Source of the DNA: Verrucomicrobiota bacterium
Lineage (GTDB): Bacteria > Verrucomicrobiota > Verrucomicrobiia > Palsa-1439
Direction: 5' to 3'
Length of the DNA stretch: 64,000 nucleotides
Assembly (NCBI GenBank): GCA_003152315.1
Contig: PLZV01000037.1
Location: 105,679 to 169,678 of the forward strand
A program made the position numbers and the translations under genes. Positions 18,397 through 20,997 of the stretch are shown piece by piece; the first letter of the stretch is position 1; each line of letters opens with the position of its first letter. The notes beneath the pieces are model-generated. The model was not told the DNA's origin. It was given only the letters and a program-made list of their open reading frames with translations, and made no database searches.

Positions 18397-18556
18397 GTTG
18401 CCGCAAACGTTTTCCGCGTCTTGGAGTTTGCCGTTGTAGGCCGCGTCCCCGACGCGGCGTCCTCATTTACCAAACCACGCGGCCAATTTCGGAGCAAAGT
18501 CCGAAAAGCTCCAAAGAAGTCGTCCCCGTATCCTCGAACCCTAAAAGACCCTCCAT

Positions 18557-18588
18557 AAATGGGTTCGTTTTCAAAAACGAACCCATTT
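18557..18588. repeat. 32-bp perfect palindrome
   Basis: Two 15-bp arms (18557-18571 and 18574-18588) are exact reverse complements around a 2-bp centre (CA). The arm begins AAATGGGTTCG. There is no T-run on either side, so an intrinsic terminator is unlikely. It could be a cruciform, a protein-binding or recombination site, or a dispersed palindromic unit. Confidence 0.8.
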
Positions 18589-18730
18589 GGTTCTTCGCGC
18601 AGTTTTCGCCACATCACTAATATGCACAATTACTTACATCGTTTGCAGAACCGTTTGCAAATGCGTTCGTTTCGCAGAATGGCATGTTTGATGCGCCCCC
18701 TCCCACGCCACTTTGCTCTACCGGCTATCT

Positions 18731-18802
18731 CCTCTCCCCTTGGGGGGAGCGGAGTCCGACGACACGCCGTCGTCGTATACGGCAAAGGATTAAGGTGAGG
18801 GG
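18731..18802. repeat. REP-like GC-rich element, partial copy
   Basis: It begins CCTCTCCCCTTGGGGGGAG and ends AAGGTGAGGGG, the same building blocks as the complete 99-bp element at 37103-37201. The left outer arm is missing and the middle carries a different hairpin (GACGAC-ACGCC-GTCGTC). This looks like a degraded copy of a dispersed palindromic repeat. Confidence 0.6.
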
Positions 18803-18843
18803 TTTCCGCCCCTGAAGAAGGCTCGCCCTTGTCCGCCATCTCG

Positions 18844-18940
18844 TCCGCCGAAGCTCTGGCGAAGGAGGAAGCACAACACGACGGCGGAAGCGTCCCCGCG
18901 AAGGCGGACCTGTCGCGCCGTAGCTTTAGCGAAGGCGGAT
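18844..18940. repeat. pair of inverted GGCGGA-type short repeats
   Basis: At 18844-18869 the sequence TCCGCCGAAGCTCTGGCG leads into GAAGGAGGA. At 18915-18940 a related unit is present in the opposite orientation (GCGCCGTAGCTTTAGCGAAG followed by GCGGAT). Each is a short imperfect hairpin with a CGCC/GGCG core. A third relative lies at 38504-38528, so this is probably a small dispersed repeat family. Confidence 0.5.
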
Positions 18941-19100
18941 GTCAAAGAACTGGGCGAACTATACCCATCCCTCCACAGCGTGTCCAGCAAAAAAATATCA
19001 ATTTGCGATATGCATTCGTTAGGAGCGCTCGCATTTCTCGCCGTAAACTTTCTTACTGTCAGGTCGTCTTCGTTCTGGTACAACATCACATGGACAGTCA

Positions 19101-20081
19101 ATGCACGACCTCGTGAAGCAATTACCACACGTTCTAAACTTTCCGCCGTCATCGACCAAAGGCGAATGGTGGAAGGACCAGATCATCTGCGGCGATTCCT
19201 TGCCGATTTTACGCGTCATGTCGGATGAAAGCATCCACCTGGCAATCACCTCGCCACCCTACAATGTCGGCCTCGAATACGACTCGCACAACGACAAGAT
19301 GCCTTACGAGGAGTATTTGCAGTGGCTCACGTTGTTTTGGAAGGAACTATACCGCGTCCTCGTGCCCGGCGGCCGTTTTGCCCTCAACATCGCCCCGACC
19401 AGCATCAAGGACTTTCGCCCGATCCACTACCACATGACGCGTGACCTGGTGAATCTTGGATTCATTATGCGCACCGAGATTCTCTGGTACAAACAGACCA
19501 TGCGCCGCCGTACAGCATGGGGTTCGTGGAAAAGCCCGCACAATCCGCACATGGTCCCAAGTTGGGAATACGTACTCGTGTTCTCAAAGGGGTCTTGGGC
19601 ATTGGAGGGCAATAAGGCTGATGCGGATATTACCGGCGAAGAATTCATCAAGTATTCGGATGCGTTCTGGCAAATCCAACCCGAGACACGTGGCCGTCAA
19701 CCATTCCTGAAAAGCCTCTATCCACCACGCCGAGGTCGCAAAGCCCCGGAGCAGAAGGCAAATAGCCACCCGGCTCCATTTCCCGAAGAGTTGATCAAGC
19801 GCCTGATCAAGTTTTACAGCTACCGGGGCAATGTCATCCTCGACCCCTTCGGCGGCATTGGGACTGTGGCTGCAGTGGCCCAACGATACGGCCGCCACTT
19901 CGTTCACCTCGATCTCTCGAAGAAATACTGTGCAATCGCTGTGGAACGCGTGGCCGCTGAAATGAAACAAATGCGCCTTGATGAAATACCGGTCCGCAAG
20001 CCCGAAAACACTCCGGTGGCCGCTTCGGTCGCCGTGGCCAAGAGGAAGTACGCACCTCGCAAGAAGGTCAGGCGGAAATGA
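19101..20081 (+). CDS. DNA methyltransferase, beta class (N4-cytosine or N6-adenine)
   Basis: A 326-residue amino-methyltransferase with catalytic motif IV (TSPPYNVG, residues 50-57) before the SAM-binding motif I (DPFGGIGT, 248-255), the order of the beta class. The SPPY form is more typical of N4-cytosine enzymes, but N6-adenine is possible. The tail (from about 300) is Lys/Arg-rich and probably unstructured. Target sequence unknown. The gene is followed 31 bp later by a restriction-endonuclease-like gene that is interrupted, so together they form a type II restriction-modification locus, now probably methylation-only. Confidence 0.88.
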   Translation: MHDLVKQLPHVLNFPPSSTKGEWWKDQIICGDSLPILRVMSDESIHLAITSPPYNVGLEYDSHNDKMPYEEYLQWLTLFWKELYRVLVPGGRFALNIAPTSIKDFRPIHYHMTRDLVNLGFIMRTEILWYKQTMRRRTAWGSWKSPHNPHMVPSWEYVLVFSKGSWALEGNKADADITGEEFIKYSDAFWQIQPETRGRQPFLKSLYPPRRGRKAPEQKANSHPAPFPEELIKRLIKFYSYRGNVILDPFGGIGTVAAVAQRYGRHFVHLDLSKKYCAIAVERVAAEMKQMRLDEIPVRKPENTPVAASVAVAKRKYAPRKKVRRK

Positions 20082-20112
20082 CCGACAATCGTAGCGCTTA
20101 AGCGTGCGATCA

Positions 20113-20919
20113 ATGAGTGCTTCTGACTATTACGATCAGGTCAAAGGCGATCTAACGGATTTCGGCAAGAACGCTGTCGCAGATGTAGGCAAGATCATGA
20201 CACTGGTTCAGGCTTTGGATCTGCCAGAGAAAGAGGTGATGCCTACAGCCCAATACATCTACATCACCCATTATCAAAAGGTGAATGTGGCCGACGCGAA
20301 TTAAGCGCGCCAGAGTTGGGTTGCCGCCAGCGGCAACAATTTCGAGACGTTCATGCGTAATTTCATCAACCTCAATCTGAACGGCGAAGGTATCCTTGCC
20401 GTGAAAGGTGATCGACTAAAGACCAGCCCGAAGGCCGTGAATATCGTGAGCTTTCTGACACTGAAAGCGAACCGCCGTTGCACGCAAACGACCACCGGCG
20501 TGTGGCCCGATTCGGATATTGTCGTCTTGACGAGAGATAAGACCGCCACTCTTAAGGCATTTGCCCTGCTAAACTGCAAAACAAGCGATCACAGCCGGAA
20601 CGATGCGGTGCTGTTTTGGGCGTTAGCTTTGAGGGACACCAACATTAAGTACTGCCTACTCACCCAAGATTTGGACAAGCGATTTGATAAAGGGGATGGT
20701 GATACCCGCGTGAGCAGCTTGAGGAGAAAGGCAGAGGCGTTTCTGGATCGTGTGTACTCCACCAGTCCTACGACGACGGAATGTTCCCAGGTAAAGAAGC
20801 TGGATTTCAAGACTCTCACGGGAGCCGATGCTCTCCTCACAGACTTGCGCCGCTGGCGTCAGGATGTAGTGCCGAATTATTCATCCGCCATGCTGCGCGA
20901 AGGTTTTCTCTCCGCCTGA
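20113..20919 (+). pseudogene. type II restriction endonuclease (BsaWI-like PD-(D/E)XK), interrupted by in-frame TAA
   Basis: Frame 1 is open from ATG 20113 to 20301, stops at TAA 20302-20304, and continues in the same frame to 20919. The residues just after the stop (ARQSWVAASGNNFETF) join smoothly to those before it, so this was one gene of about 268 codons. The catalytic region is in the second part: PDSDIVVL near 20506 and LLNCKTS near 20569-20586, matching a D..(Q/N)xK form of the PD-(D/E)XK nuclease site. From memory the layout resembles BsaWI, including a SW..SSG..FE segment and a QSKTS-type catalytic strand; this needs a profile search. A single base change could have made the TAA. If ATG 20353 initiates, a 188-residue fragment keeping the catalytic residues could be made, probably inactive. 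Confidence 0.65.
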
Positions 20920-20997
20920 CCAATCGTTGTCCAAATCGTGGCTCAATTCGTTTTGCGGTTGCTGCTCTCCTTGCGAAGCCGTAGATTGACGATCAGC

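Follow-up and report, generated by a model that had tools for sequence, protein, structure and literature searches.

Does a locus in which an intact methyltransferase gene precedes a nuclease frame cut by a single stop codon represent a Type II restriction-modification (R-M) system that is turning into a solitary methyltransferase? The origin of solitary methyltransferases is disputed between decay of R-M systems in place and arrival as single genes, and Oliveira et al. 2014 (PMC4176335) favour the latter, solitary genes rarely arising by in-place decay. The locus lies in a window of 64,000 nucleotides, the whole stretch of DNA analysed here, taken from contig C34 of a draft genome of 4.9 Mb in 62 contigs (G000). 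We give a probability of about 70% to the reading that the nonsense-inactivated nuclease gene (R) beside an intact methyltransferase gene (M) is a Type II R-M system under conversion to a solitary methyltransferase. The features of the locus, in window coordinates, are the following.

18415-20950, no strand assigned: insertion holding the M and R genes, flanked by hsp20 and NAD+ synthetase and missing from a same-genus genome (G001)
19101-20081, + strand: M gene, beta-class amino-DNA methyltransferase, intact ORF of 326 aa
20113-20919, + strand: R gene, BsaWI-like Type II restriction endonuclease frame of 268 codons, interrupted
20302-20304, + strand: in-frame TAA at codon 64 of R; the predicted helices of the N-domain lie before it and the long helix H4 after it (domain boundaries taken from BsaWI, PMC4652773)
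20344-20346, + strand: E78 codon, counterpart of the BsaWI active-site E92 (profile alignment to 4zsf and PMC4652773)
20353-20355, + strand: ATG81, the first in-frame ATG, GTG or TTG past the stop, located after E78
20509-20511, + strand: D133 codon in WPDSD, presumed counterpart of BsaWI D145 (sequence, PF18643 match and PMC4652773)
20578-20580, + strand: K156 codon in NCK, presumed counterpart of BsaWI K165 (same basis as D133)

An intact methyltransferase and an interrupted BsaWI-like nuclease

The upstream gene is open throughout, as the initial annotation had it, and matches PF01555 in Pfam (E 1.7e-42), MTase_II in PADLOC (E 2.5e-67) and 2zie in the PDB (E 6.8e-29). Its motif IV (TSPPYN) stands ahead of motif I (DPFGGIGT), the order of the beta class. 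Identity to homologues within its bacterial family is 66-87%, and omega against G001 is 0.093. R follows on the same strand after 31 bp, so that the two genes would form a Type II R-M cassette probably read as one transcript.

The R frame contains exactly one internal stop, the TAA at 20302-20304, which is its sole visible lesion; the coordinates first given were right. Both sides of the stop align continuously with an intact R in three other genomes, at 89% identity in G001, 62% in an Omnitrophota MAG and 63% in a Chisholmbacteria MAG. The original proposal that the protein reads through the TAA in the same frame is thus borne out, the intact relatives being continuous with a sense codon at this column. 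Across all relatives compared here, the residue is Gln in G001, G009, L003 and L005, and Lys in L006. Recoding of TAA was considered and rejected, since the codon is an ordinary stop in other ORFs of the window and a sense codon is found in the relatives.

The part of R past the stop matches PF18643 (RE_BsaWI) with 40.6 bits (E 2.9e-10, cut-off 26.2). Three intact relatives also score above the cut-off (38-39 bits), and in them the match is likewise confined to the catalytic part. The 63 residues ahead of the stop have no meaningful Pfam match; the PF18643 model does not cover the N-domain. The restriction of the match to the downstream part is what one would expect if the two ORFs were distinct genes, one encoding a small N-terminal protein and the other a nuclease that stands by itself. 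However, both parts are one continuous protein in three genomes, BsaWI itself has an N-domain followed by a C-domain, and a profile of R relatives gives a match to BsaWI (PDB 4ZSF), weak as it is (E 0.027), that spans the stop (R residues 13-104, 4zsf residues 18-118). We regard separate genes as scarcely credible. The refuting outcome named in the initial annotation, two parts from different families, did not come about: the PF18643 match, the continuous homologues and the 4zsf profile place the sequence ahead of the stop and that past it in a single BsaWI-like enzyme.

Other searches with R were negative within their scope. A single R protein compared with the PDB by phmmer gave chance matches only, NCBIfam and PADLOC hold no model for R, no R relatives were found in viral contigs, plasmids or phages, and a wider phylum sample gave no further R. 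Structure prediction of an intact R relative produced a poor model as a whole (pLDDT 57), with which a Foldseek search of the PDB found nothing; helices are predicted at residues 3-13, 21-33, 39-58 and 62-92, and pLDDT is mostly >70 up to residue 70.

The N-domain of BsaWI (residues 1-69) is helical and is exchanged between subunits when the dimer forms; helix H4 touches the DNA in the minor groove, and the putative active site consists of E92, D145, K165 and D175 (PMC4652773). R resembles this enzyme in length (268 versus 272 aa) and in an E..PD..xCK-type active site, and helices are likewise predicted ahead of its catalytic domain. The placement of E78 comes from the profile alignment to 4zsf, that of D133 and K156 from the Pfam match and the spacing of the motifs; all three are present in the window R and in the intact relatives. 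The D..NCK catalytic site noted at the outset can thus be assigned by BsaWI homology to D133 and K156, with E78 as a further member of the set. The ARQSW..SGNNFE segment corresponds to BsaWI helix H4, with its minor-groove contacts and E92.

By alignment, the stop falls at the boundary between the N-domain and H4, and would hence remove the whole catalytic domain: translation would end after the predicted N-terminal helical domain and no catalytic domain would be made. A working or regulated nuclease could still be produced if the TAA were read through, or if translation restarted at ATG 20353 as the initial annotation had suggested; selection past the stop is indeed intact (see below). Readthrough is opposed by the use of TAA as an ordinary stop elsewhere in the window and by the fact that no relative has a stop at codon 64. 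As to restart, its product should, by analogy with BsaWI, be dead, since it would lack both the N-domain, which is dimer-swapping in BsaWI, and E78, the presumed active-site Glu equivalent to BsaWI E92. Moreover, ATG81 is not conserved, being Val or Ile in L003 and L005. Continued production of the nuclease by either route is very improbable.

Selection on the nuclease and age of the stop

Past the stop, R compared with G001 has a dS of 0.95, a dN of 0.060 and an omega of 0.063, indicating strong purifying selection; ahead of the stop omega is 0.084. When changes past the stop were polarised with G009 as outgroup, the window lineage had 36 synonymous and 10 nonsynonymous changes and the G001 lineage 34 and 11 (Fisher p 0.81), so there is no excess of amino-acid changes in this part of R on the window's lineage relative to that of G001. 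About 113 nonsynonymous changes would be expected if the whole window branch were neutral. A model in which a fraction f of the window branch is neutral fitted best at f = 0 and disfavoured f >=0.1 (2 delta lnL >=4.3), these values being approximate, as the likelihood was computed from parsimony counts under a simple Poisson model. With no sign of relaxed selection, the stop is either very recent or an assembly error. If real, it probably arose in about the last 10% of the window branch, as measured from the divergence from G001.

The same absence of relaxation is equally expected from a base-call error or a minority allele. The TAA call is a single consensus of a fragmented draft assembly; it could be a miscall in that consensus or come from a minority strain, in which case the real R would be intact and the system would still cut. 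One substitution accounts for the stop, the assembly is broken into 62 contigs, and the 1-base frameshift in a second M of this genome, described below, could be an error as well. However, 23 other ORFs of the window compared with the sister genome G002 (∼12,800 codons) have zero in-frame stops, and three more that seemed to contain stops turned out to be antisense frames or 5' extensions of intact genes. Stop-making errors are therefore rare in the window, and one falling in R would be unlucky. We consider this explanation unlikely, and retain the reading that a nonsense substitution at codon 64 very recently put the BsaWI-like R out of action, and that the intact M upstream would continue to methylate the genome as a solitary enzyme.

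The pair in related genomes and its place in the genome

The 89% identical R of G001, which corresponds to the Verrucomicrobia bog MAG bog_1451 (L002) as judged from an identical match, belongs to an intact M-R pair. An intact R also stands beside M in L003, and L005 has an intact R with M nearby. M lies directly upstream of R in G001, in G009 and in L006, and likewise, with a more divergent M, in L003; in L005 it is beside R on the opposite strand. We also observed that the M frame of L005 (4832-6241, - strand, Chisholmbacteria) is fused N-terminally to a sequence that by eye resembles a LexA-like repressor, and this part might serve as a regulator.

Two further genomes, both draft MAGs, have M open and R broken in other ways. 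R of G009, from the same family as the window genome, is split over two contig ends, its halves being 78% and 82% identical to the query; the break has 14-16 bp perfect inverted ends and a 6-8 bp repeated target, as from an insertion element. The gene mutS follows R in G009 and also neighbours the R-less M of G004, which supports joining the two G009 contigs. R of L006, a Spirochaetaceae MAG, lacks codons 1-28 and about 208-236 and carries a frameshift. Finally, M is present without this R in G002, G003, G004, G007 and G008 and, in a second family, in four genomes. These could be R losses or M genes never paired with this R, and the M tree is too poorly resolved for the number of losses to be counted on it.

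Other proteins with a PF18643 match were seen as well. Two of ∼220 aa in G006 and G009 (L074 2-670 and L075 740-1399) do not adjoin the M family, have a hydrophobic start resembling a signal peptide and are possibly exported nucleases; one further match lies in G003 (G003:C79). In G000, the interrupted R is the sole PF18643 match, and no RE_MjaI was found.

The genes hsp20 and NAD+ synthetase are adjacent in G001, an empty site, and are separated by ∼2.5 kb in the window, where the cassette appears to have been inserted; no clear target duplication was seen at the inserted segment. The M-R pair of G001 lies elsewhere, next to a Fic-like gene and a Cas3-like helicase (named by eye). Between window and G001, dS is 0.90 for R and 1.18 for M, similar to the 0.83-1.30 of lon and NAD+ synthetase, which suggests that the pair may date back to the origin of the genus and have been relocated.

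The gap between hsp20 and NAD+ synthetase seems prone to insertions, since G002 carries a different ORF there (L052 12236-13444, in G002:C4), 403 aa long and by eye like an AI-2E-type permease. Within the inserted segment, just upstream of M, window positions 18640-19000 hold a dispersed repeat that resembles a REP- or MITE-type element; pieces of it match 56 places in the genome (at up to 98%, in short pieces).

A second M of the family occupies the same position in G000, G001 and G007, close to a gene that by eye is queG-like. It is intact and syntenic in G001 and G007; its frame in G000 (G000:C40, near 8240; L050 near 4745) is shifted by 1 base directly ahead of the SAM-binding motif. Thus, the resident M of G000 is frameshifted and the cassette M intact, and in G001 both are intact. 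In G002 the neighbours of the queG-like locus are kept and M is gone; the only close M of this genome lies elsewhere and is closest to the window M (87%). Each of the three genus genomes (G000, G001 and G002) consequently has at least one intact M, not the same copy in each, and this suggests that the methylation mark itself is maintained in the genus.

Possible DNA targets and the proposed conversion to a solitary methyltransferase

R departs from BsaWI, a CCGG-family enzyme cleaving W/CCGGW, in the residues that contact DNA. The base-contact residue K85 of BsaWI is Ala71 in R and N81 is Gln67. The CCGG-reading motif R169-D170-R171 is not conserved either: the R-(D/E)R motif of the family is absent after NCK, R having HSR at 160-162 and L005 having HAR. 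With these replacements, WCCGGW is an unlikely target of the system as judged from sequence, and we rejected the filing of R as CCGG-specific by analogy with BsaWI.

For M, another motif comes forward. The M of cyanophage S-CAM3, the closest phage M that has a partner endonuclease, shares 43-47% identity with the window M over ∼260 aa and adjoins an RE_MjaI endonuclease gene (E 1.6e-45), and a similar gene pair occurs in S-RIM32. MjaI cleaves CTAG. The m4C CTAG methyltransferases M.MjaI, M.MthZI and HVO_0794 (zim) resemble M in TSPPY and in the beta motif order. This likeness, together with the S-CAM3 pair, makes m4C in CTAG the leading candidate, a tentative lead drawn by analogy and less likely right than wrong. 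In the window CTAG is the rarest 4-base palindrome (observed/expected 0.50), which says little, as CTAG is scarce in many bacteria. The window's pair differs from the MjaI-type pairs in that its R is BsaWI-like, not MjaI-like. Beta-class CTAG m4C methyltransferases include, besides M.MjaI, the widespread solitary HVO_0794 of Halobacteria, and the halobacterial CTAG enzymes are, like M, often solitary and family-wide (PMC5867850).

Loss of M while R works is lethal, so that loss of R first is the permitted order, as would be the case in the window. We infer that cutting by R has been lost and methylation by M retained, and the lineage presumably keeps M for its own sake. As in solitary methyltransferases derived from R-M systems, M would be retained and R lost; in contrast to the picture of Oliveira et al. 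2014 (PMC4176335), decay would here be seen under way at the locus itself, through lesions that differ between genomes. The event is of a known kind and unusually clear: the genus also holds an intact pair, the lesion here is single and fresh, and those of relatives are different. A broader scheme is rather doubtful: that the family keeps one conserved methylation mark, and that R-M cassettes with matching specificity bring in a new M time after time and afterwards lose R. If this were true, giving up R or the cassette would be less costly to a genome that already has a resident M of that specificity.

The locus also points to an uncharacterised group of BsaWI-like enzymes with altered DNA-contact residues. 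Moreover, one small family that holds an intact pair, differently broken R genes and M alone makes the decay route to solitary methyltransferases directly testable.
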